NCBI GenBank assembly: GCA_905182715.1
Contig: CAJJCP010000034.1
Span: forward strand, 1-36,775
Reading direction: 5' to 3'
Source: an uncultured Candidatus Poseidoniales archaeon
Lineage (GTDB): Archaea > Thermoplasmatota > Poseidoniia > Poseidoniales > Poseidoniaceae
Length of the DNA: 36,775 nt
Shown: positions 16,038 through 36,775 of the stretch, in pieces
Numbering within the stretch: position 1 is the first letter of the stretch
Layout of the letters: every line of letters starts with the position of its first letter
Made by a program: the position numbers and the translations under genes
Notes under the pieces: generated by a model
The model's database searches: none
What the model saw: only the letters and a program-made list of their open reading frames with translations
Told to the model about the DNA's origin: nothing

Positions 16038-17240
16038 TTGCTGGAGGTTTTATTTTCGGACTTTGGAGAGATTCTTACTCGTCAAGATGTGACCGTTTCA
16101 ACACGTCAAGGCATGAACCCTGAAGGCCTCCGCTATGGATCTGGTTCTCAGGGCTTTGGAAGTGCTAAAATCGAAATCGATCGGAAATTGGCTATTGTAG
16201 CAACTCGACGACGACGACAAGAGTCAATTGCAAACCATTTGGCCATTGAAACTACAGAACGTCAAGCGAAAGAACAACTTGTACAAACACGTGCTCGACA
16301 AGAAGCCGAGCAGCAACAAATGTATGCTGATGCTCAAGAAGCAGCACATGAAGAGGCACGTTTAGCGTCTGAAGCGGCTCAACTCATACGTGACCAAGAA
16401 GATGCGGCTCGACGTCGTGAAGAAGAAGAGGCCCGCCTCTCTGCTGAGCGAGAGAACCAACGTCAGGCAGACTTTTTGGCTGCTGAAGAGGCTCGTCTCG
16501 CAGAAATTGCAGCAGCCCAACAGCAACAAGTATCTTCCACGAATGCAAATTCAAAAGCCATTAAAGAACTTCAAGCACGATTAGAACGTGAGGGTGCTAA
16601 ATCTTCTGACGTTCAAGTTTCACTTATGTGGAACAATTACAATGACCTTGACTTACATATTGTCTGTCCTTCAGGCGAGCGTCTTCACGGCGGAAACAAA
16701 ACTTCAGCCTGTGGCGGAATTCTTGACGTGGATGCAAATGTGCGTGCGGAAACCCGTAAGCCAGTTGAGAATGTCTTTTGGCCAGAGGGAACTGCTCCAG
16801 GTGGACAATATCATGTCTATGTGCATTATTACAAAAAGCACAACAAGCGCCGTTCCAAAGACCCAACAAGTTTCCAGATTATGGTGAACAGTGGCGGAGA
16901 AATGACCGAATACACTGCTGAACTCAGCAAGGGTGACCCAATTATGCAAGTCTGTTCGTTTGAGGTTTCATCGAAATCAGAGCGAGAGCGAGTAAAGCGT
17001 GAACTTGAATCGGAACTTGAAGCACTTAAGAACAAGTTTACCGATGCAGATGCAGACGGTAGTGCTCAACTTTCAGTTGAAGAACTTGCAAAGGCTACTG
17101 GTATGTCCATCCAAGATGCTGAAGTCATTCACAAGAAGGCCGACAAAGATGGCGACGGTTCAGTTTCACTTGATGAATATCTTTCTGCTTCCGATGTTCC
17201 GAGTGCTCCTGATTTGGAATCATTGAGCAATGACGACTGA
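16038..17240 (+). CDS. Coiled-coil, DUF2135 and EF-hand protein
   Basis: 400 residues with three parts. Residues about 60-180 form a long Ala/Glu/Arg/Gln-rich coiled coil. Residues about 190-320 match the DUF2135/YfaP-type beta domain, with LMWNNYNDLDLHIVCPSG, GGILDVDAN and a PVENVFWPEG stretch. The C-terminus holds two EF-hands: a variant loop starting D336-A-D338-A-D340-G, one residue longer than canonical, and a canonical loop D369-K-D371-G-D373-G ending at E380. Calcium binding is therefore likely. No signal peptide is seen, so it is probably cytosolic. The start is unclear: TTG 16038 opens the frame, ATG 16113 is the first ATG in frame, and no ribosome site fits either. ATG 16012 with a shift is also possible. 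Role unknown; a calcium-responsive structural protein is a guess. Confidence 0.7.
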   Translation: MLEVLFSDFGEILTRQDVTVSTRQGMNPEGLRYGSGSQGFGSAKIEIDRKLAIVATRRRRQESIANHLAIETTERQAKEQLVQTRARQEAEQQQMYADAQEAAHEEARLASEAAQLIRDQEDAARRREEEEARLSAERENQRQADFLAAEEARLAEIAAAQQQQVSSTNANSKAIKELQARLEREGAKSSDVQVSLMWNNYNDLDLHIVCPSGERLHGGNKTSACGGILDVDANVRAETRKPVENVFWPEGTAPGGQYHVYVHYYKKHNKRRSKDPTSFQIMVNSGGEMTEYTAELSKGDPIMQVCSFEVSSKSERERVKRELESELEALKNKFTDADADGSAQLSVEELAKATGMSIQDAEVIHKKADKDGDGSVSLDEYLSASDVPSAPDLESLSNDD

Positions 17241-27888: not shown

Positions 27889-28677
27889 ATGCAGTCAACT
27901 TCAGTTTACACCCGTGACCGTTGCGTAACGGGTATCCATGGATTGGATGAAATCCTTCGCGGAGGTATCCCCCATGGTTCAACTGTACTTGCCGCTGGAA
28001 CCTGTGGTTCAGGGAAAACAACACTTGCAATGGAATTCTTAGTCCGAGGGGCTTTGGCCGAATTCCCAGAATCATGCGCACACTTTACAGCAACAGAACC
28101 TTCGATCAAATTACTTGAAAATATCCGGCAATATGCATTTTTCGATATGAAAATGGTCGATTCAGGTAAAATCAATGTTTTTGACATGGACGTCTTGTAC
28201 TCATGGCTTGGACTTGACAAAGCATCGTTTGACCTCGATGACGTCCACGCTCTCATTAAAGCGATTATTAACATCGTTCACGAAATCGGTGCAACTCGTT
28301 TGGTGATTGATTCAGTTACGACCTTGTGTTACAAAATCAAATCCGAACAGCTTATCCGGGATTTCCTCTTTACTCTTGGGAAGAAATTGGCATCACTCGG
28401 TTGCACAACTATTCTAATCTCTGAAATTACATCGGCAACAGAAAATGCCCATTGGTCTTCTTTTGGTGTTGAAGAAGCGATTGCAGATGGCATTATCGTC
28501 ATGGGGGATGTAGAGCGAATGGGCCACCTTCTCAGATTCTTGCAAGTCGTTAAAATGCGTGGAACAGCTCACAGTCGTGCTAAACACGCTATTGAATTGA
28601 CTCCATTGGGCGTTATGCTCACTCCTATGCTCAAGTGGGGCGCTCAACACGATAAGACCAATAAAGTGGGGAACTGA
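27889..28677 (+). CDS. KaiC-like RecA-fold ATPase with intact P-loop
   Basis: Single-domain KaiC/RadA-superfamily ATPase, 262 residues. Starts with the family phrase TGIHGLDEILRGGIPHGS. Walker A is GTCGSGKTT at 37-45 and Walker B ends at D141 in TRLVIDSVTTL. A glutamate near 70 (TATEPS) stands where KaiC has its catalytic pair, so the pair is incomplete. Domains of this type act as nucleotide-dependent switches, for example in signalling, gas-vesicle regulation and archaellum control (ArlH). ATG 27889 has no ribosome site. The next gene starts three bases after the stop. It is the only member of the three consecutive KaiC-fold genes that keeps a usable P-loop, so it is the likely ATP hydrolase of the set (inference). 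Confidence 0.85.
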   Translation: MQSTSVYTRDRCVTGIHGLDEILRGGIPHGSTVLAAGTCGSGKTTLAMEFLVRGALAEFPESCAHFTATEPSIKLLENIRQYAFFDMKMVDSGKINVFDMDVLYSWLGLDKASFDLDDVHALIKAIINIVHEIGATRLVIDSVTTLCYKIKSEQLIRDFLFTLGKKLASLGCTTILISEITSATENAHWSSFGVEEAIADGIIVMGDVERMGHLLRFLQVVKMRGTAHSRAKHAIELTPLGVMLTPMLKWGAQHDKTNKVGN

Positions 28678-28680
28678 TAC

Positions 28681-29286
28681 ATGTATTCTAACATTGTACT
28701 TGACGACCGGATTGCTGAACAACTTGCTGTTGATATCAGTCTTAGTAGTGCTATTCAAGTTCGATTCGGTAATTCGAACGCTTTCAATGTGACCGCCAGT
28801 ACTCTGATTCCGTTAATGCGAGACCACGATATGGGTGGTGTGTACATTTGTGCAAGCGTTGGTGCAGTAGAACGTATTGAAGAATTCAAGGCCATTGGAC
28901 TTTCAGATGAAGATATTTCACGAATTCAATTTATTGATTTGGTTTCTTCAGGAATTTTGGGTGGCACTGATGTCGCCTACACCAATATTCATTTTGTTGA
29001 CAGCCCAATTATGCTCGAATCAGTTCTTCTTCGAACCTTGTATATTCTCCGCATGACGACATCTGTACGCAATTTCGTATTTTTGGACAGCGTCAATGCC
29101 TTAGCCATCTACAATGACGAACGCATGCTTGCTGAGTACCTTCACACTTTCATCAATACCTTCCGTCAGAGAGAAGTTCTCTCAGTCATTCTGAATGTAC
29201 CTGACCAAACACCTCCTTTGGTTCTCTCCAATCTCGATTTATACTGTACCGACTTGATCGACAGAGGGCAAGTTCTCATTAATTGA
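28681..29286 (+). CDS. Degenerate KaiC/RecA-fold protein without P-loop
   Basis: 201 residues, weakly similar to its KaiC-like neighbours. The core beta-alpha pattern is kept: GGVYICASVGAVERIEEF, a strand ending in a Walker-B-like aspartate (NFVFLDSVNALAIYND), then RQREVLSVILNVPD. No Walker A is present; the N-terminus goes straight from LSSAIQVRFGNSNAF to LIPLMRDHD. It therefore probably does not hydrolyse ATP. It starts three bases after the preceding gene's stop, and the following gene begins 12 bases after its stop, so the three are one operon. A regulatory or scaffold partner of the active ATPase is the best guess. Family name not recognised. Confidence 0.65.
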   Translation: MYSNIVLDDRIAEQLAVDISLSSAIQVRFGNSNAFNVTASTLIPLMRDHDMGGVYICASVGAVERIEEFKAIGLSDEDISRIQFIDLVSSGILGGTDVAYTNIHFVDSPIMLESVLLRTLYILRMTTSVRNFVFLDSVNALAIYNDERMLAEYLHTFINTFRQREVLSVILNVPDQTPPLVLSNLDLYCTDLIDRGQVLIN

Positions 29287-29297
29287 GGTGTTTTACT

Positions 29298-30101
29298 ATG
29301 GCGCGAAAAATTGATTTTGACCCGGAAGATGAAGAATTCTTTGGAAAAGTAGGTTCGTTTGGCGTTCCGAAATTCGACAATGAAATGCACGGTGGTGTGC
29401 CACGTGGTTTCATCATGGTTGCTTTTACAGATACGGGTTCTGGAAGTGAGTTATTTGCGAAGCAATTTACCTCACCTGCTGAAGAATCCGATAATACGCT
29501 CTACATTTCAACCAATGAAGGTCAACAAGAAATTATTCGTATTTTCCAAAAGTACGATTGGCCGCTTGACATCAGTGTTCGAACCATAGGTGAAGAATAC
29601 AATTCGACTGTTTTGGAACGTGAACTTTTAGCCAGTCGTTACCGATTAGAAGGTTTCCGACTCGATGATATCCGACGACTTGCCCAAACTCGGTTCGTAG
29701 ACGATAATACGCAAGATTATTTGACAGAAGTCACCAATGAAGTCATGGCTTTAGGTCCTTATTTCAGAGCGGTTATTGACAGCCTTGATTTCTTTTTACA
29801 AAGAGAAGATCCTGCTCGTGTTATTGCAATGGTGCGTATGCTTCAAGCCCACGCTCAATTGAATCGAGGATTGATACTCATTTCGGTCTCGACCCACGGT
29901 TTGGACCCACTTGTAAAGCAAGAGTTGTCCTCAATCGCTGATATGGTTCTCTCTTTCCAAGTGCGAACCATCGGTACAGACTTTGAAACTTCAATGATTG
30001 TCTCAAAGTTCCGAAACGCTCCTGAAAATTTGAAAGTTCTCGTATTCCGTGTGACTCCAGAAGAAGGAATCACTCCAGAAACAGTTGAACGTATCGCTTG
30101 A
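29298..30101 (+). CDS. Degenerate KaiC-like ATPase, broken P-loop
   Basis: 267 residues from ATG 29298, which follows TTGAGGTG at good spacing; GTG 29283 overlapping the previous gene is less likely. It opens with a KaiC-type phrase, GVPKFDNEMHGGVPRGF. The P-loop position reads TDTGSGSE (44-51), where the invariant Lys and Ser/Thr are replaced by Ser and Glu. The Walker B strand survives (YFRAVIDSLDFFL). A C-terminal strand typical of the family follows (MVLSFQVR). ATP binding may be lost or altered. It completes the operon with the active KaiC-like ATPase and the P-loop-free protein. Pseudoenzyme subunit is the likely role; signal and output are not visible. Confidence 0.75.
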   Translation: MARKIDFDPEDEEFFGKVGSFGVPKFDNEMHGGVPRGFIMVAFTDTGSGSELFAKQFTSPAEESDNTLYISTNEGQQEIIRIFQKYDWPLDISVRTIGEEYNSTVLERELLASRYRLEGFRLDDIRRLAQTRFVDDNTQDYLTEVTNEVMALGPYFRAVIDSLDFFLQREDPARVIAMVRMLQAHAQLNRGLILISVSTHGLDPLVKQELSSIADMVLSFQVRTIGTDFETSMIVSKFRNAPENLKVLVFRVTPEEGITPETVERIA

Positions 30102-30188: not shown

Positions 30189-30938
30189 ATGGGCGACCGA
30201 GCGGCAACTGGCGGTTTCGACCCTTCCGGCATCGATCTTGATGCATGGGAGAAATTGGAAGAACAGCTTGAAGAAACCATTCCAAACTATGACCGGGTCA
30301 ACCGTTTGATGACGTTTGGCCAGGATAAGCGTTGGCGGAGAAATGTTCGGAATCATGCTACAGCGGGGATGAAAATTCTCGAAGTGGGTTGCGGTCCGGG
30401 TTCATTTGCTGAAGATCTGATTGGACTCGATGTAACCTGTCTTGACCCTTCATCCGAGATGTTGAAAGTCGCAAAGAAGCGTGTTGACGCTGCTCGAGAA
30501 TCTCGTGGTGAGCAACCGGCACACTACATCGAAGCCATTGCCGAATCAATTCCTTGCGAAGACAATACTTTTGATATGGTCTTCTGTCTTTTTTCATTCC
30601 GTGATTTCCAAGATAAAAAGAAAGGACTGGGTGAGATTTACCGTGTTCTCAAACCTGGCGGTAGGCTCGTTATTTGCGATGCAGGAAAAGCCAATTGGGT
30701 GCATGGTCTAGGTGGCCGAATCTGGATGGCAACCGTCGTTCAATGGATTGCTCGCTATGTCACCAAAGAGAAAAATCATCCGTGGAAGGGTCTTGCAAAT
30801 ACGTACACTCAATACGGTACAAACGGGTACTATCGGGCCATGATGAAGGATGTTGGTTTCGATGACGTACAGGGCCGCTTATTATGGCCTTTTTTGATGT
30901 CAAGTCGGTTTCGAGCAACCAAGCCAGAGCAGGAATGA
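30189..30938 (+). CDS. MenG/UbiE-like SAM methyltransferase
   Basis: Class I SAM-dependent methyltransferase, 249 residues from ATG 30189. The family-specific N-terminal phrase YDRVNRLMTFGQDKRWRR is typical of demethylmenaquinone methyltransferases (MenG/UbiE). The SAM motif I is ILEVGCGPGSF, followed by the acidic DPSSEMLKVAKKR. Motifs II and III are PCEDNTFDMVFCLFSFRDF and YRVLKPGGRLVICD. Start uncertain: GTG 30174 lies just after GAGGT, and TTG 30111 opens the frame. It lies between the KaiC-like operon and the ATP synthase genes. If it methylates menaquinone it links to the respiratory chain implied by the heme A genes, but the substrate is inferred. Confidence 0.82.
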   Translation: MGDRAATGGFDPSGIDLDAWEKLEEQLEETIPNYDRVNRLMTFGQDKRWRRNVRNHATAGMKILEVGCGPGSFAEDLIGLDVTCLDPSSEMLKVAKKRVDAARESRGEQPAHYIEAIAESIPCEDNTFDMVFCLFSFRDFQDKKKGLGEIYRVLKPGGRLVICDAGKANWVHGLGGRIWMATVVQWIARYVTKEKNHPWKGLANTYTQYGTNGYYRAMMKDVGFDDVQGRLLWPFLMSSRFRATKPEQE

Positions 30939-31030
30939 AACAACTTTACGGTTGGAAAACTCCATACTTTCCGCCCATTAGCCTCATAAACCCCTTCCGA
31001 TTCACCGAACCACTGGTGGTTTACTTGGGT

Positions 31031-31342
31031 ATGAAAGATGTTCTCCGAAAAATCAAAGAGGCCGAGCAGTCTGCCGAAAAGCGACTTTCTTCTGCTCAAA
31101 CTGAGTCGAGTAAAATTACTGGTGACGCACGAAGAGAAGCATCAGCACTTGTCACCGGTGCTACCGAAGACTCTGTGAGCGAAACTCAAACCGCTCTCGA
31201 CGCTGCCCGAAGCAAGGCAGGCAAAGAAGCAGATAGCGTTCAAAAAGAAGGTGCTTCGGTTGTTGACAAAATTCAATCCTCTGCATCGAGTCGAAAGGAA
31301 AAAGCAGTCAAGAACCTTCTTGACGCAGTTACTTCACAATGA
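31031..31342 (+). CDS. atpH: A-type ATP synthase subunit H (peripheral stalk)
   Basis: 103 residues, almost entirely a charged coiled coil (DVLRKIKEAEQSAEKRL onward), typical of the archaeal peripheral-stalk subunit H that pairs with subunit E to hold the catalytic head against rotation. ATG 31031 is chosen because the family begins here; the upstream open frame overlaps the methyltransferase gene. First gene of the ATP synthase operon, nine bases before subunit I. A TATA-like CTCATAAAC near 30982-30990 would start the transcript around 31010, close to the ATG. Confidence 0.82.
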   Translation: MKDVLRKIKEAEQSAEKRLSSAQTESSKITGDARREASALVTGATEDSVSETQTALDAARSKAGKEADSVQKEGASVVDKIQSSASSRKEKAVKNLLDAVTSQ

Positions 31343-31351
31343 GGCGATATC

Positions 31352-33697
31352 ATGTTTGCTACTTCTGAGATGTCCCGTCTTACAGTAGCAGCTCCTGTCG
31401 GTAAGATGGAAGAGATTCTCCGCCTCTGTAGCGAACTTTCATGTGTTCACATAGAAGAATACGGTCGCTTTGAAGACGGAATTGGTGTTGGGGCATCAAT
31501 GGATTCTGATGAGGCAAATGCCATTAGCAACTTGTTAGTGAAGGTTCAAGCAGTTTCTTCTTCAGTTCAAGCATCCAACATTGATGGTCCAGTTCCACAT
31601 GCTGACGCGGTCAAAATGGTTGCCTCTTTCGAAGAGAAGGTCGTTGCAGCATTGGCATACATCGATACCATCCGTGACGCCCAATCCACAATCGCTACCT
31701 CTCAAGAGCAATACCATGTTCTCAATCGTTTGGCTCCTCTTGACCTTCCGCTCGAATTGATGGGTGGATTTGAAGGCATTGAAGTGTTTGTAGGAGAGGC
31801 ACGAAGCACCTCGAAAGCATCAGAAATCTTTTCAGACATACTCTCAGAGATTGAGTTGCATGCTGCTGGCGGCCTGATCGCAGTCGCATGCCGTTCTGCA
31901 CATTCCGCTGAAGTTCAAATCTGCATGGCAGAGTTGGGTTCCAAACCTGTTCAAATCCCATCTGGAGAAGGTTCACCTGCAGAGAAGGCAAAAGCTCTTC
32001 TTACAGAAATCGAACGTTTAGAATCAAAAGTTGTGAGTACACAAGAAGATCTTGACGCTTGGACTCTCCGTAACGGGCGTAACCTTGTCACTGCTGAGGA
32101 ACATCTCGTGCGGGAAATGGCAATCTATACCGCCCCAACACTGGTTGCAGTGAGCAACCAAGCATTTGCTTTGGATGGTTGGGTTCCAGCCGACCAGGCA
32201 GATTATGTCGAAAGCCGATTGTCCAAGATTGCTTCTCACGTTAGCATTGAGGCCTATGTCGGTGGGCATCATCACGAACACCATGATGAACCAGCATCTG
32301 CTGACTTAGAAGAACTCATTATGCTCTCAAATTATCTTGTCAAGACCAATCAATCAATTTTCCAATTCTTCAAGGCCATTGATTTGGATGATTCAGGCCT
32401 CATTGATGGCTATGAATTCCAAAATGCTCTGAAAACTGCAGATGTTGCCAACCTCCCTCCATGGGAAATGGGTAAACTCATGTCAGCAGTTGACCTCGAT
32501 GGTGATGGAAAAATCAATTTGCCTGAATTGGACATCACACTCACTCGTATTCGAAACACTCCGACCCATGATGACGGCCACTACGATGTCGAGCCCCCGA
32601 TTCAATTCACCAACGGCTCAACTTCAGAACCGTTTGAACTGATGGTCGATTTAGTTGGCCGTCCTAAGTACGGAACGTTCGACCCAACGATGCTTATGAT
32701 GATGACTTTCCCATTCATCTATGGAATGATTTTGGGCGATTGGGGCTATGGAATCGTCCTTCTACTTCTGGGTGCATGGCTTGGAAGCAAAGCCTTCGCC
32801 GTTGATCCAATGGCGCAAAAAGGAATCACAATTCTCCGATGGATGGGCGTTTGGTGTATTATTTGGGGCATTATATTCGCAGAAGGCTTTGGCTTTGTAT
32901 GGGATAATACCGGTCAAATGGGAAGCAACTCTCCTTTCAATGGATTTTATGAATGGACCTATGCGAATATCCACGTCCCAGGAGCAATGGCCGACCTCTT
33001 GAACCTCGGAGGCCTCCACATGCCGTTCCACCGAGCATCGGAAGGTCACGGATTGCAAGAATACGTGATTCTCTCCATTTACTTGGGTGCTATTCACATC
33101 TTCCTTGGATTCATGCTTGGACTTATCAATGTCTTCAAGGCACACGGTGCAGCAGCAGCATTCTTCGAAAAGGGTTCTTGGATTCTTATTCTCATCGGCG
33201 GTTTCATGCAATGCCGAAACATGGTTTCAGGCTACAATGATCTGTTTGAATTCCAAATCTGGACCGTCTTACTTATTGTTGGTATCATCAGCCTCATCAT
33301 TGGTTTGGCAGTGTTCGAGAAATTCGGATGGGCTGGCGGCCTCATTATGGGTCCGATCGAAACCTTCGGTCTTCTCGCAAACACACTCTCTTATCTGCGA
33401 ATTATGGCAGTTGGTGTTGCAGGCGTTAAGATTGCAGAAGTGTCCATCACTATGGGCTTTGAGCCGATGATGAACTCATTTACCAGTGGCGGAATTATGG
33501 GGATCCTTGTCGGTCTCCTTTGCTTTGTCTTGTTCATCGGCATCCAAGTCTTTGCCATCGCTTTGGGAATCCTTTCCCCTACCATTCACGCTGCCCGTCT
33601 CCACTTTGTGGAATGGATGGGCAAATTCTACGACGGGTCCGGCCGTGCTTTTGCACCGCTCGGTGGCCGTAATCTCCATGTGGAGAATAAATCATAG
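31352..33697 (+). CDS. atpI: A-type ATP synthase subunit I (a) with an EF-hand pair inserted
   Basis: Stator subunit with the ion half-channels. The N-terminal cytosolic domain (1 to about 300) has the usual long coiled coils. The membrane domain starts near 425 with EPFELMVDLVGRPKYGTFDPT, then FIYGMILGDWGYG and about seven helices. The essential arginine is R683 in LSYLRIMAVGVA. The length of 781 exceeds the usual ~650-700. The excess contains a His-rich stretch (GGHHHEHHDEP, 304-314) and two canonical EF-hand loops, at 344-355 (D344, D346, S348, G349, E355) and 381-392 (D381, D383, D385, G386, E392). The insertion sits between the cytosolic and membrane domains, on the stator. The frame is continuous through it with no sign of a chimera. 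Calcium regulation of ATP synthesis is inferred. ATG 31352 overlaps GAGGCGAT at good spacing. Confidence 0.95.
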   Translation: MFATSEMSRLTVAAPVGKMEEILRLCSELSCVHIEEYGRFEDGIGVGASMDSDEANAISNLLVKVQAVSSSVQASNIDGPVPHADAVKMVASFEEKVVAALAYIDTIRDAQSTIATSQEQYHVLNRLAPLDLPLELMGGFEGIEVFVGEARSTSKASEIFSDILSEIELHAAGGLIAVACRSAHSAEVQICMAELGSKPVQIPSGEGSPAEKAKALLTEIERLESKVVSTQEDLDAWTLRNGRNLVTAEEHLVREMAIYTAPTLVAVSNQAFALDGWVPADQADYVESRLSKIASHVSIEAYVGGHHHEHHDEPASADLEELIMLSNYLVKTNQSIFQFFKAIDLDDSGLIDGYEFQNALKTADVANLPPWEMGKLMSAVDLDGDGKINLPELDITLTRIRNTPTHDDGHYDVEPPIQFTNGSTSEPFELMVDLVGRPKYGTFDPTMLMMMTFPFIYGMILGDWGYGIVLLLLGAWLGSKAFAVDPMAQKGITILRWMGVWCIIWGIIFAEGFGFVWDNTGQMGSNSPFNGFYEWTYANIHVPGAMADLLNLGGLHMPFHRASEGHGLQEYVILSIYLGAIHIFLGFMLGLINVFKAHGAAAAFFEKGSWILILIGGFMQCRNMVSGYNDLFEFQIWTVLLIVGIISLIIGLAVFEKFGWAGGLIMGPIETFGLLANTLSYLRIMAVGVAGVKIAEVSITMGFEPMMNSFTSGGIMGILVGLLCFVLFIGIQVFAIALGILSPTIHAARLHFVEWMGKFYDGSGRAFAPLGGRNLHVENKS

Positions 33698-33727: not shown

Positions 33728-34039
33728 ATGAACGTAAATACCCTAAAAATGAGCCTAAGAACACTGATCCTTTTGGCAGCCATCACCATGGTTGCTCAAG
33801 GTGTCGCAGCAGCTGAAGACGCAGAACTCACTCAATCCGACGGATCGGGATACTCTGCTATCGGTGCTGGAATTGCCCTAGGACTTGCAGCAATTGGTGC
33901 AGGTCTCTCTCAAGCAGCCATTGGCAGCGCAGCTGTCGGTATGCTTGCAGAAGATGGAAGCAAGTTCGGTGTCGCACTTATTTTCACTGCTTTGCCAGAA
34001 TCCATCGTGATTCTCGGTGCTTTGCCTCTCTTCCTTTGA
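33728..34039 (+). CDS. atpK: A-type ATP synthase subunit K (c ring proteolipid)
   Basis: 103 residues: an N-terminal signal-like hydrophobic stretch (about 10-29, ending in AAAE), then the two-helix hairpin of the rotor ring. Helix 1 (about 42-72) contains Q62 in GAGLSQAAIG. Helix 2 (about 80-103) contains the ion-carrying E91 in ALPESIVILG. The combination of Q62 in helix 1 and E91-S92 in helix 2 resembles Na+-binding c subunits, so sodium coupling is possible; proton coupling cannot be excluded. A clear GGAGGT site (33715-33720) precedes ATG 33728. Single hairpin, not the duplicated eukaryotic form. Confidence 0.93.
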   Translation: MNVNTLKMSLRTLILLAAITMVAQGVAAAEDAELTQSDGSGYSAIGAGIALGLAAIGAGLSQAAIGSAAVGMLAEDGSKFGVALIFTALPESIVILGALPLFL

Positions 34040-34102: not shown

Positions 34103-34666
34103 ATGACGCTTGAAACACTCGCAAAAGATATCGCTAAATCTGCTGAGGCTGAAGCCTCGGCTATGGTCAAAGCGGCTAATGAAGAGGCAAAGGCAATACT
34201 TGCTGAAGCCAATACAAAGGCCGATACCATTCGCTCGGAAGCATCTGCTCGTACAGAACGTGAAGCAACTCAAATTGCCCGTGAAGTCGTAGCCAGTGCT
34301 CGCCAAGCCAACCAAAAAGAAATTCTCGTTGCTCGACGCAAGGTTCTCGATGAGACCTTCCAATCGACCAGTGACGAACTTGGAAACCCGAAACTCTCAG
34401 GAAGAGCAAGTTTGCTCAAGTCTCTGATGGCAAAGGCTGACAAGATTGGTGGTAATGATTACACAATTCGACCTGTAGAACTTGACCGTAAGTCACTTTC
34501 AGAAATTGCTGGTAAGCGCACGATTGGTGAACCAATCGTTGGGCTCGGTGGCTTTGTTCTTGAATCGCCAGATGGCTCAGTGTCCTATGATATGCGCTTT
34601 GATACCCTCCTTGAATCGACTTGGAGCGGAAAACTCGCTGAAATTAATTCAATACTTTTTGACTGA
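34103..34666 (+). CDS. atpE: A-type ATP synthase subunit E (peripheral stalk)
   Basis: 187 residues. The first ~100 form an Ala/Glu/Lys-rich coiled coil that pairs with subunit H. The C-terminal head (about 105-187) contacts the catalytic subunits and carries GEPIVGLGGFVLESPDGSVSYDMRFDTLLE, the family's best conserved part. Length typical. A good AGAGGA site precedes ATG 34103. Seven bases separate it from subunit C. Confidence 0.93.
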   Translation: MTLETLAKDIAKSAEAEASAMVKAANEEAKAILAEANTKADTIRSEASARTEREATQIAREVVASARQANQKEILVARRKVLDETFQSTSDELGNPKLSGRASLLKSLMAKADKIGGNDYTIRPVELDRKSLSEIAGKRTIGEPIVGLGGFVLESPDGSVSYDMRFDTLLESTWSGKLAEINSILFD

Positions 34667-34673
34667 GGGATAA

Positions 34674-35717
34674 ATGATGGTAATGCTTGGAAATACACCT
34701 TATGTTGCTGCCCGTGCTAAGTCACGCCGGCAGAAACTTGCGGACCGTTCTAGGCTACGCCAACTGATCAACCAATCACCCGAACAACTGACCGTTGCGG
34801 TCAGCGAAATGGGATACCGTGCAGAGATTGATCTCTATGCAGGGCAATTGACTGGTGGCGATCTAGTTGAAGCCGCATTAACCCATAACTTGGAACATGA
34901 ACTTGAACAGATGCTTTCGATGTGTAACGGTAAAATCCGTGCCATCGTCGAAACCTATACTTCACGGTTTGAGTATCACAATGCCAAGGTTGTTCTTCGA
35001 GCTGTAGTGAATGATGTGGAACTTGAAAAAGTATCACATTCGATTCTTCCTGAATTGAATGACATTAACACGCCATGGCTGAAAATCATTGAAAATGCTG
35101 ATGACTTGCGCTCTGCAGTTGTTCAGATGCGACGTAAATCGTTTGGTCCTGCGCTCAATGCAGTTCCGGAAGATTCCCGACTTTCAGATTACGAAGATGC
35201 CCTTGATGTCCATTATTTCAAGAAAGCCTTGTCTTCAATGACCGGTAAAGGCGCAGATGTCCGTTTCTTGAAAGAACTCCTTGGCGCTGAAATCGATCAC
35301 CGTAATCTCTTGAACATTCTTGAGTCTCAAGCGGTCGGTATTTCTTCAGAGGATGTTGTCTCAATGCTTGTTCCTGGTGGTCGCCTCGTACCTTCCCGCG
35401 CTTTCTCTTCGATTGCAGCAGGTGGTAAAGACGCCGCTATGGACTTATTACGAAGTTCAGGCCGATTTGATTTCCCTGCGTTTGAAGCAGCACTCGCTGC
35501 CTCGGATGAAATGAACAGCCTTGACCCCGTCGTTACTTGGTTCAAGGAACGAGAATACGCAATCATGAAGCGAATGAGTTTCCTTCATCCAGTTTCCGCA
35601 CTACCCGTTGTTCACTACATGGCCATGAAGGTCCAAGAAGTGAATGATTTGCGCCTAATCGTTCGTGGGCGCCTTGCTGGACTGTCTGTTGAAGTGCTTG
35701 AAGCACATATTTTGTGA
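34674..35717 (+). CDS. atpC: A-type ATP synthase subunit C (rotor-ring adaptor)
   Basis: 347 residues, all alpha-helical, V-ATPase subunit C/d family: the funnel that couples the central shaft to the c ring. Recognised from NTPYVAARAKSRRQKL at the start, repeated three-helix units, and the C-terminal VQEVNDLRLIVRGRLAG. ATG 34674 sits directly after a GAGGGA site that overlaps the subunit E stop; Met2 and Met4 are possible alternatives. Length normal. Confidence 0.92.
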   Translation: MMVMLGNTPYVAARAKSRRQKLADRSRLRQLINQSPEQLTVAVSEMGYRAEIDLYAGQLTGGDLVEAALTHNLEHELEQMLSMCNGKIRAIVETYTSRFEYHNAKVVLRAVVNDVELEKVSHSILPELNDINTPWLKIIENADDLRSAVVQMRRKSFGPALNAVPEDSRLSDYEDALDVHYFKKALSSMTGKGADVRFLKELLGAEIDHRNLLNILESQAVGISSEDVVSMLVPGGRLVPSRAFSSIAAGGKDAAMDLLRSSGRFDFPAFEAALAASDEMNSLDPVVTWFKEREYAIMKRMSFLHPVSALPVVHYMAMKVQEVNDLRLIVRGRLAGLSVEVLEAHIL

Positions 35718-35728
35718 GGTGATTATGT

Positions 35729-36028
35729 ATGGATATCGCAGTCGTAGGAACACCGGAATTCACTCTTGGATTCCAACTTGCAGGTATAGATAACCTGCAC
35801 AACCCTGAAGGAGAAGAGGCAACGGTCTCTACCTTCAAAAAACTACTCAGCACCAAAAGCGTAGGGATTGTCGTGGTTGACTCCACAATCCTTACTACGC
35901 TGCCAGAGCGTCTTCGTGACCAACTCTCGGCATCCGTCTCTCCGACCGTGCTTGGCATTGGAACGGAAGAAGACACCACCTTGCGAGATACAATTCGTAA
36001 GGCAATTGGAGTCGACCTGTGGAAGTGA
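35729..36028 (+). CDS. atpF: A-type ATP synthase subunit F
   Basis: 99 residues with the Rossmann-like fold of subunit F, a component of the central stalk that modulates ATPase activity. Conserved starts and strands: MDIAVVGTPEFTLGFQLAGI, GIVVVDSTI and PTVLGIG. ATG 35729 follows TGAGGTGAT; an ATG four bases earlier is in another frame. Last residues DLWK; 28 bases before subunit A. Confidence 0.9.
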   Translation: MDIAVVGTPEFTLGFQLAGIDNLHNPEGEEATVSTFKKLLSTKSVGIVVVDSTILTTLPERLRDQLSASVSPTVLGIGTEEDTTLRDTIRKAIGVDLWK

Positions 36029-36056: not shown

Positions 36057-36775
36057 ATGAGAAATGAAGGAGTAATTTATCGAATATCCGGTCCTGTTGT
36101 AACTGCAACTGGCATGAACGCTGCAATGTATGACGTGGTTCGTGTTGGCGATGAAGGTTTAATGGGCGAAGTAATTGAACTGCACGGCGATAAGGCTGTC
36201 ATCCAAGTGTACGAGGATACCTCTGGTATGCGTCCGGGTGAACCTGTATTGAACACTCAAGAAACGCTTTCTGTTTCTTTGGGTCCTGGTCTCTTAACCC
36301 AGATTTATGACGGTATCCAACGTCCTCTTCCTACTTTGGAAGAAAAGATGGGTGTTTTCATTACTCGGGGTGTTGATGCAGACGCATTCGACATGGAGAA
36401 GACTTGGAACTTCGAACCTCAAGTCGCTGTTGGCGATTCAGTGGTCGGTGGCCAAGTTATTGGTCACGTCCAAGAAACTGAAACTATTGTTCACAAGGTC
36501 ATGGTACTTCCAACCGTAAGCGGTGTCGTGAAGTCGATTGAATCCGGAGAATTCAATGTTACACAAACTGTTTGTGTGCTTGAAGATGGCACCGAAATGC
36601 AGATGATGCAGAAGTGGCCAGTCCGAACACCCCGACCTTACCAACAGAAGTACGCTCCAGAAACTCCTCTTATCACCGGTATGCGTATTCTCGATTTCCT
36701 CTTCCCTCTTGCAAAAGGTGGCGCAGCTGGAATCCCTGGTCCATTCGGTTCCGGTAAGACCGTTACACAACAATC
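36057..36775 (+). CDS. atpA: A-type ATP synthase catalytic subunit A, partial
   Basis: First 239 codons of the catalytic subunit that hydrolyses or makes ATP in the A3B3 head. N-terminal beta barrel ([12 protein letters not shown]), the archaeal bulge domain ([28 protein letters not shown]), then the nucleotide-binding domain up to the P-loop GPFGSGKT, which falls at the right edge. Start ATG 36057 follows a GGAGGA site. The sequence runs off the window, so B and D subunits are expected beyond. Nothing odd in the visible part; no intein is inserted up to and including the P-loop. Confidence 0.96.

Follow-up and report, generated by a model that had tools for sequence, protein, structure and literature searches.

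An EF-hand pair within subunit I of an archaeal ATP synthase

The DNA analyzed here, a stretch of 36,775 nucleotides (the window) from an uncultured Candidatus Poseidoniales archaeon (assembly GCA_905182715.1, contig CAJJCP010000034.1), includes an operon for an archaeal A/V-type ATP synthase (Table 1). One gene of this operon, atpI, is free of stops throughout its 781 codons, and its product is subunit I (subunit a) of the enzyme. The V_ATPase_I family (PF01496) matches the protein with 105.2 bits (cut-off 30.7), residues 177-316 resemble the solved chain 3rrk of a V-type ATPase 116 kDa subunit (expectation value (E) 2.7e-5), and NCBIfam models name it V-type ATP synthase subunit I with scores that fall under their whole-protein cut-offs. 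Between its cytosolic arm and its membrane domain, inside a linker rich in His and Asp, this protein carries a module composed of an EF-hand pair preceded by an additional helix. Relatives that lack the insert align with a short His/Asp-rich linker at the identical point, where the arm joins the membrane domain.

Canonical EF-hand loops comprise 12 residues, with metal ligands at positions 1, 3, 5, 9 and 12, a Gly at position 6 and a hydrophobic residue at position 8. Both AtpI loops have this pattern at the ligand places as well as at positions 6 and 8. Pfam recognizes an EF-hand_7 pair (PF13499) over residues 335-392 (E 7.5e-8; 33.1 bits against a curated cut-off of 30) and an EF-hand_1 match (E 3.7e-8; 32.8 bits against 25.4). 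A preliminary description of this DNA, made from its letters alone, had placed two canonical loops at residues 344-355 and 381-392, and these coordinates proved exact.

Table 1. Positions of the genes, protein regions and loops discussed in the text. Positions refer to the window unless another locus is named.
Feature	Position	Strand	Basis or remark
Putative G/H (peripheral stalk) subunit	30884..31342	+	V-ATPase G-like, under Pfam cut-off
atpI, encoding the 781-residue subunit I (subunit a) of the A/V-type enzyme	31352..33697	+	PF01496, E 3.4e-30
N-terminal cytosolic arm, residues 1-303	31352..32260	+	Alignment to insert-less relatives
His/Asp-rich linker ahead of module, residues 304-318	32261..32305	+	Also in insert-less relatives
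Inserted module, residues 319-403 (~85 residues): conserved N-terminal helix and EF-hand pair	32306..32560	+	Pfam, alignments, AlphaFold, Foldseek
Extra N-terminal helix, residues 320-331	32309..32344	+	AlphaFold; conserved across hosts
EF loop 1, residues 344-355, DLDDSGLIDGYE	32381..32416	+	
EF loop 2, residues 381-392, DLDGDGKINLPE	32492..32527	+	
Variable linker behind module, residues 404-413	32561..32590	+	Alignment
Membrane domain of subunit I, residues 414-781	32591..33694	+	Pfam, solved-structure and NCBIfam matches
c (K) subunit	33728..34039	+	Pfam
E subunit	34103..34666	+	Pfam
C (AC39, 'd') subunit	34674..35717	+	Pfam
F subunit	35729..36028	+	Pfam
Catalytic subunit A, start only; continues past window edge	36057..36773	+	ATP-synt_ab_Xtn, E 1.6e-28; ATP-synt_ab_N, E 2e-16
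Orphan membrane protein with C-terminal module	L121 2220-4187	-	Also L124, L127, L128, L131, L132

The module was modeled with AlphaFold in isolation, with 15 sequences as input, and within full-length subunit I, with the window protein and 19 relatives as input. The isolated module is well predicted to form a paired EF-hand lobe, as had been anticipated, plus an extra N-terminal helix. The helix at residues 320-331 is followed by two helix-loop-helix units with a short strand in each loop (helices 336-341, 353-362, 370-380 and 390-402; strands 350-352 and 387-389), and block values of the predicted local distance difference test (pLDDT) range from 69 to 88 over the fold. Foldseek agrees with this assignment, as the best 50 of 1192 matches have probabilities of 0.99-1.00, are mostly calmodulin, centrin, ACF7 or other EF-hand proteins, and yield TM-scores by target of ~0.5-0.73 for short single-lobe chains. 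Chains of ciliary doublet microtubules take ranks 1, 2 and 4, and the nearest solved relatives by sequence are a flagellar radial spoke protein and calmodulins.

Both loops are retained in all 46 insert-bearing relatives that were fetched, which represent 46 distinct proteins. In loop 1, positions 1, 3, 5, 6 and 12 are invariant (46/46) and position 9 is D in 32 sequences and E in 14; in loop 2, positions 1, 5, 6, 9 and 12 are invariant (46/46) and position 3 is D in 31 and N in 15. Ca2+-compatible ligands therefore occupy the chelating positions of 46/46 sequences. The codons of the ten examined places differ synonymously, and across eight pairs, each with the window gene as one partner, nonsynonymous divergence (dN) of the module is 0.025-0.138 and synonymous divergence (dS) is 0.36-2.8. 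Thus, the Ca2+ ligands are under purifying selection. A Glu at position 12 combined with Asp, Ser and Asn ligands is the pattern of Ca2+-specific loops, and because Glu is present at position 12 of both loops, the module likely binds Ca2+.

The AtpI insert was gained once in one clade of one genus

Matches to the subunit I protein were obtained in 281 of the 292 genomes of the order. To define which of these carry the module, a 170-residue query comprising the insert and its flanks was searched against the 62 genomes of the genus of the window (g1). Among the matches listed, a match that spans the insert and both flanks is present in at least 48 of these genomes, and none of the 48 spanning matches contains a stop. 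Seven further genomes (G291, G232, G089, G085, G161, G208 and G296) match with a flank only, in frames of 692-699 residues, and another seven (G292, G244, G274, G294, G246, G228 and G266) yield neither kind of match, again among those listed; in G228, subunit I starts at the contig end. When the search was extended to 389 genomes of the phylum, the matches listed by E-value span the insert in 26 of the 28 genomes of the genus and in none of the 361 outside it.

The preliminary description had held that the module is a true insertion rather than a sequence fault, and this stands, given that numerous separate assemblies contain the insert and that its flanks can be aligned to the family. It is also not confined to the window, as evident by its presence in at least 48 of 62 congeneric genomes. 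Within Marine Group II, the insert belongs to one clade of one genus rather than to the group as a whole.

A subunit I tree was built after removal of the insert columns, with 68 rows comprising 46 insert-bearing and 7 insert-less sequences of the genus and 15 from other genera (the insert-bearing G293 and G295 and the fragment L086 were left out). The 46 insert-bearing rows form one side of a branch with a support of 94 in the approximate likelihood ratio test (SH-aLRT). The seven insert-less rows of the genus form a separate branch (SH-aLRT 100) that is joined with the 46 at 98, and no insert-less row lies within the 46-row clade. On this tree, the module was acquired once with no later loss, and is a trait of one clade within one genus. 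Its gain would have taken place in an ancestor shared by the majority of the genus, within the linker that joins the arm to the membrane domain. A secondary loss in the insert-less clade is superfluous, because one gain explains the tree. Apparent insertions of ~120 residues in subunit I of G165 and G192 (L066 and L067) were also inspected and correspond to runs of N, and so are not real.

Between the window protein and its insert-less relatives of the genus (L069-L074), identity is 45-47% in the arm and 69-72% in the membrane domain. This low arm identity to the sister clade looks as if the arm changed alongside the gain.

Homologous modules reside in complex I subunits and in an orphan membrane protein

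Homologues of the module are present in NuoL, in the second half of NuoJ and in an orphan membrane protein, and this is a larger finding than the AtpI insert itself. The genus search also pointed to G000:C2:19743-20027 in the genome of the window. This second site shares 63% identity with the module and is the C-terminal end of a polytopic membrane protein of ~656 residues. Comparisons with Pfam, NCBIfam and the PDB provided no family name for this protein; Pfam reports the EF-hand alone, plus a SAP or helix-hairpin-helix domain in some homologues, and its membrane part has no PDB match at E up to 10. Homologues that carry the module were found in all 11 genera of the family that were searched (23 genomes), with membrane parts at least 29% identical. 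Behind the module, a SAP domain is seen in L124 and a helix-hairpin-helix in L131.

Two candidate identities for the orphan protein were rejected. Its look had raised the suspicion of a heme-copper oxidase, which is unsupported: PF00115 matches other genes in the same genome, and a profile comparison with that genome's own COX1 gives a probability of 0.5%. NCBIfam matches to XopAW cover the EF-hand part only and score far under the cut-off.

In a second genus (g2), a module ~57% identical to that of AtpI resides in NuoL. The NuoL label is backed by Pfam and NCBIfam, and the gene has nuoK on one side and a nuoM-like gene on the other. Spanning matches to a query that crosses this insert are present in 27 of 30 g2 genomes; in G118 the module is covered and the match stops with the contig, G202 matches one flank only, and G561 gives no match. 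A more distant module occupies the identical loop of NuoL in all three genomes searched of g19, a genus of the other family, presumably Thalassarchaeaceae. In two of these three genomes, moreover, NuoJ is split, and its second half terminates in a close copy of the module. At L133, the preceding frame corresponds to positions 1-63 of the chain-6 profile (E 1.2e-17), and the fused frame corresponds to positions 78-146 (E 0.0032, under the cut-off) and is followed by nuoK; the fused frame at L172 corresponds to positions 73-146 (E 0.00025, also under the cut-off). Pfam backs the labels subunit A, NuoK, NuoM-like, NuoJ, COX3, permease and ZnuA as used in this study. A profile of the module found nothing at E up to 1e-10 in eight genomes outside the order.

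When 11 insert-less NuoL proteins were aligned, including that of the window's genome, a His/Asp-rich stretch was found at the loop that bears the module elsewhere. Such stretches exist in both NuoL and AtpI without the insert, and the module therefore entered linkers that were already present. This happened once in AtpI and at least once in NuoL, where g2 and g19 may represent two events. A survey of 45 genomes placed the module on AtpI in g1, on NuoL in g2, and on NuoL and NuoJ in g19, and no genome carries it on AtpI and NuoL together.

In a tree of 105 modules (91 columns), those of AtpI, NuoL (g2), NuoJ (g19) and the orphan proteins of g1, g2, g3, g5 and g8 cluster with an SH-aLRT of 98, and zinc-ribbon EF proteins and others lie apart. 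Also outside the cluster are the orphan-protein modules of g4, g6, g7, g9, g10 and g11, a second copy in L139, and NuoL of g19. Mean identity to the AtpI modules is 0.53 for NuoL (g2), 0.32 for NuoL (g19) and 0.28 for the zinc-ribbon proteins. Of any other host group, the orphan-protein modules of the same genus have the highest mean identity to AtpI modules (0.59). The modules of AtpI, NuoL (g2), NuoJ (g19) and some orphan proteins are thus more closely related to one another than to the remaining EF-hand pairs in these genomes. Approximately unbiased (AU) tests of four groupings rejected none of them (p 0.37-0.73; 93 rows, after 12 long or odd rows were dropped). Because the orphan protein is so widespread, our guess is that it was the source of the module.

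This lineage shows a tendency to fuse EF-hands to membrane proteins. An amino acid permease (L217 1568-3247(-); AA_permease_2, E 5.4e-43) ends in an EF-hand pair (E 1.4e-8), and the product of L221 1-1374(+) resembles it by eye.

The AtpI and NuoL modules are expected to face the cytosol

The N-terminal arm of subunit a is cytosolic in the established topology, and the cytosolic position proposed for the AtpI module in the preliminary description follows from it. The title of a published reference likewise calls the N-terminal domain cytoplasmic. For NuoL, the loop that carries the module lies between a helix containing HLFNHAMAKG and one containing GFWSK, which we take to be transmembrane helices (TMH) 11 and 12 in E. 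coli numbering; a plain hydropathy count of NuoL gives 14 helices, so this numbering stays inferred. In the homologous Mrp complex, helix HL is described as spanning TMH15 to TMH16 on the cytoplasmic side (PMC7419157). Because HL is cytoplasmic after TMH15, loops behind odd-numbered helices should by parity be cytoplasmic as well. With the helix numbers given above, the module loop of NuoL would then be cytoplasmic and precede the proton-path helix TMH12.

The preliminary description had regarded tuning by Ca2+ as plausible in seawater, with ~10 mM Ca2+ outside the cell. A module that faces the cytosol would not sense this seawater Ca2+ directly. Tuning of the ATP synthase by Ca2+ remains plausible.

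Possible functions of the module

The reading we favor, to which we give an even chance, is that a cytosolic Ca2+-responsive lobe has been recruited repeatedly to ion-pumping complexes, and that its loading with Ca2+ alters the enzyme that carries it. In AtpI, an EF-hand pair with intact ligands is located at the joint of arm and membrane domain, and this pair likely binds Ca2+. Binding would change a hydrophobic cleft such that an amphipathic helix is taken up or released, with the module's own conserved N-terminal helix or a helix of a neighbor as candidates. The arm might in turn become stiffer, freer or shifted, and coupling, assembly or autoinhibition would be altered. The subunit a arm is reported to pivot in isolated Vo of Thermus, such that its distal part moves 25 A, and to contact the rotor subunit d, a contact held by the authors to block rotation (PMC7367684). 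The ATP-Mg/Pi carrier, with its 'locking pin', is a described precedent for control of a membrane carrier by an EF-hand domain and an amphipathic helix (PMC6283063). With a like module on complex I in a related genus, one Ca2+-responsive part could serve different ion-pumping machines.

The cellular context was examined by counting EF-hand pairs and Ca2+ transporters. EF-hand pairs are common in genomes of this lineage: matches (rather than proteins) number 12 in the window's genome, 11 in G002, 8 in G006, 2 in G003 and 0 in G299, and of 14 control genomes one gives a match. The Na+/Ca2+-exchanger family is present in 11/11 genomes searched and also in 11/14 controls, and is therefore not special to the lineage. 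Protein families with calcium-binding domains have been described as specific to two family-level subgroups of Poseidoniales, and the text consulted from that report names no ATP synthase or complex I subunit among them (PMC9258230). The module in the ATP synthase and its close copies in the respiratory chain of related archaea suggest that Ca2+ may help control energy conversion in these cells.

A more sweeping version of this idea is that Poseidoniales repeatedly added one home-grown Ca2+-sensing module to the pumps of oxidative phosphorylation (AtpI, NuoL and NuoJ). Energy coupling would then be set directly by cytosolic Ca2+, in a Ca2+-controlled archaeal respiratory chain that evolved independently of the control known from mitochondria. 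We regard this version as tentative and rather doubtful.

Several observations weigh against Ca2+ sensing as a shared function, or against the evidence assembled for it. All three g19 NuoL modules carry Arg at position 6 of loop 1, and Ca2+ binding may therefore not be required in every host. Outside its ligands, the module is not the most constrained part of subunit I, because in L004, L005 and L007, which make up three of the four closest pairs (L006 is the exception), its dN is higher than that of the arm and than that of the membrane domain; mean column conservation is 0.72 for the arm, 0.75 for the module and 0.82 for the membrane domain. The insert is restricted in distribution, being absent from seven of the 62 genomes of the genus, among the matches listed, and its motif from subunit I in 15 of 15 sequences of other genera. 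The supports for a single gain come from a quick search with no bootstraps, and the value of 94 is just under the 95 mark. The full-length model of subunit I displays identical module elements at a poor mean pLDDT of 54, too low to position the module on the enzyme. Foldseek E-values are modest, with none of the 1192 matches at or below 0.001 (best 3.5e-3). Finally, mEAK-7, a V-ATPase partner with an EF-hand-like domain, is described as showing no Ca2+ response (PMC9263379), and some type II NAD(P)H dehydrogenases (NDH-2) with a putative EF-hand are reported not to be activated by Ca2+ (PMC6134880).

Four alternatives to a Ca2+-responsive lobe were considered. The module could instead be a structural metal site, always loaded with Ca2+ or Mg2+, that senses nothing and acts as a rigid, metal-stapled spacer or strengthens the point where the arm meets the membrane domain. 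Its insertion point in a variable linker would suit this role, and the domain of mEAK-7 illustrates that an EF-hand-like domain bound to a V-ATPase can be purely structural (PMC9263379). However, a Ca2+-specific ligand pattern that includes Glu at position 12 is kept in both loops of 46/46 sequences, and a plain spacer gives no obvious need for homologues in NuoL and NuoJ, whose neighboring architecture differs. We consider a purely structural site unlikely. Similarly improbable is a docking tag, an interface through which the ATP synthase, complex I and the orphan protein would each be brought to one shared partner, and which Ca2+, where bound at all, would do no more than stabilize. The occurrence of one module family on different hosts fits such a tag, as do the non-ligand stretches LPP (between the loops) and LPELDI (after loop 2), which are well kept in most aligned hosts. 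Yet none of the 45 surveyed genomes bears the module on both AtpI and NuoL, and the partner is only hypothetical.

There is very little to recommend the view that the module is a passenger, a mobile EF-hand segment that landed by recombination in low-complexity His/Asp linkers and was tolerated. Although the AtpI and NuoL modules do lie in linkers that exist without them and EF-hand fusions are frequent in these genomes, the ligands are under purifying selection despite heavy synonymous change, and no insert-less row occurs among the 46 of the tree. An artefact of assembly or reading frame can be set aside almost entirely, with 46 distinct sequences from many separate assemblies and 48 of 48 listed spanning matches free of stops.

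Comparison with known calcium-binding proteins

The EF-hand fold is known, as are EF-hands on mitochondrial transporters; what is new is the place in which the fold is found and its repeated use there. Among the matches listed in a search of open-licence literature, no title or abstract described an EF-hand within the a-subunit of an ATP synthase or within NuoL. The ATP-Mg/Pi carriers (APC/SCaMC) resemble the present case in that an EF-hand part and an amphipathic helix are joined to a transport protein of energy metabolism by domain fusion, but they are described as small carriers with four N-terminal EF-hands and established regulation by Ca2+ (PMC6283063). Here, a single pair is located inside the stator of an archaeal rotary ATP synthase, and we infer its regulatory role.

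Type II NAD(P)H dehydrogenases are peripheral flavoproteins. Those of the NDB1 and NDE1 type are respiratory-chain enzymes with a putative EF-hand, for some of which Ca2+ activation has been proposed, whereas several are described as having degenerate ligands and no Ca2+ effect (PMC6134880); the modules examined here combine intact ligands with a rotary ATPase or complex I as host. Likewise, mEAK-7 places an EF-hand-like domain on the mammalian V-ATPase, but is described as a separate protein that has lost its ligands (PMC9263379), unlike the built-in domain with intact ligands in AtpI. The lobes of calmodulin, centrin and ACF7 share the fold and the loop chemistry, whereas the archaeal module is a single lobe with its own N-terminal helix, embedded in other proteins.

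Few machines are as conserved as rotary ATP synthases, and if the module responds to Ca2+, ocean archaea would possess an ATP synthase with built-in Ca2+ control. Close relatives that lack the module provide natural controls. Since complex I of a sister genus bears a member of this module family, whether archaea regulate energy conversion by Ca2+ can be tested directly on a small soluble domain and by comparing natural forms.

Additional observations

Other proteins of the lineage display similar features. A ZnuA-type zinc receptor (L214 2-2533(-), E 1.3e-16) has very long, repeated His/Asp/Glu stretches together with EF-hand matches, and L215 is similar. Cytochrome oxidase subunit III at L191 2-1285(-) (E 1.5e-12), which adjoins subunit I, also contains a His/Asp-rich stretch, and such linkers may therefore be common in respiratory proteins of this lineage.

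Within the window, a second EF-hand protein of ~400 residues is encoded at 16038-17240(+). Its N-terminal part is charged and coiled-coil-like, and its EF-hand pair (residues 328-383; Pfam E 3.6e-9) is no close copy of the AtpI module. The c subunit of the ATP synthase contains GLSQAAIG and ALPESIVI, a Q and ES pattern that resembles the Na+-binding c-rings of Ilyobacter, and the enzyme may use Na+. Directly upstream of the operon are two genes for KaiC-like ATPases (27889-30101(+); E 2.2e-51 and 2.1e-16), and a third frame between them is weakly similar (E 0.036, under the cut-off).

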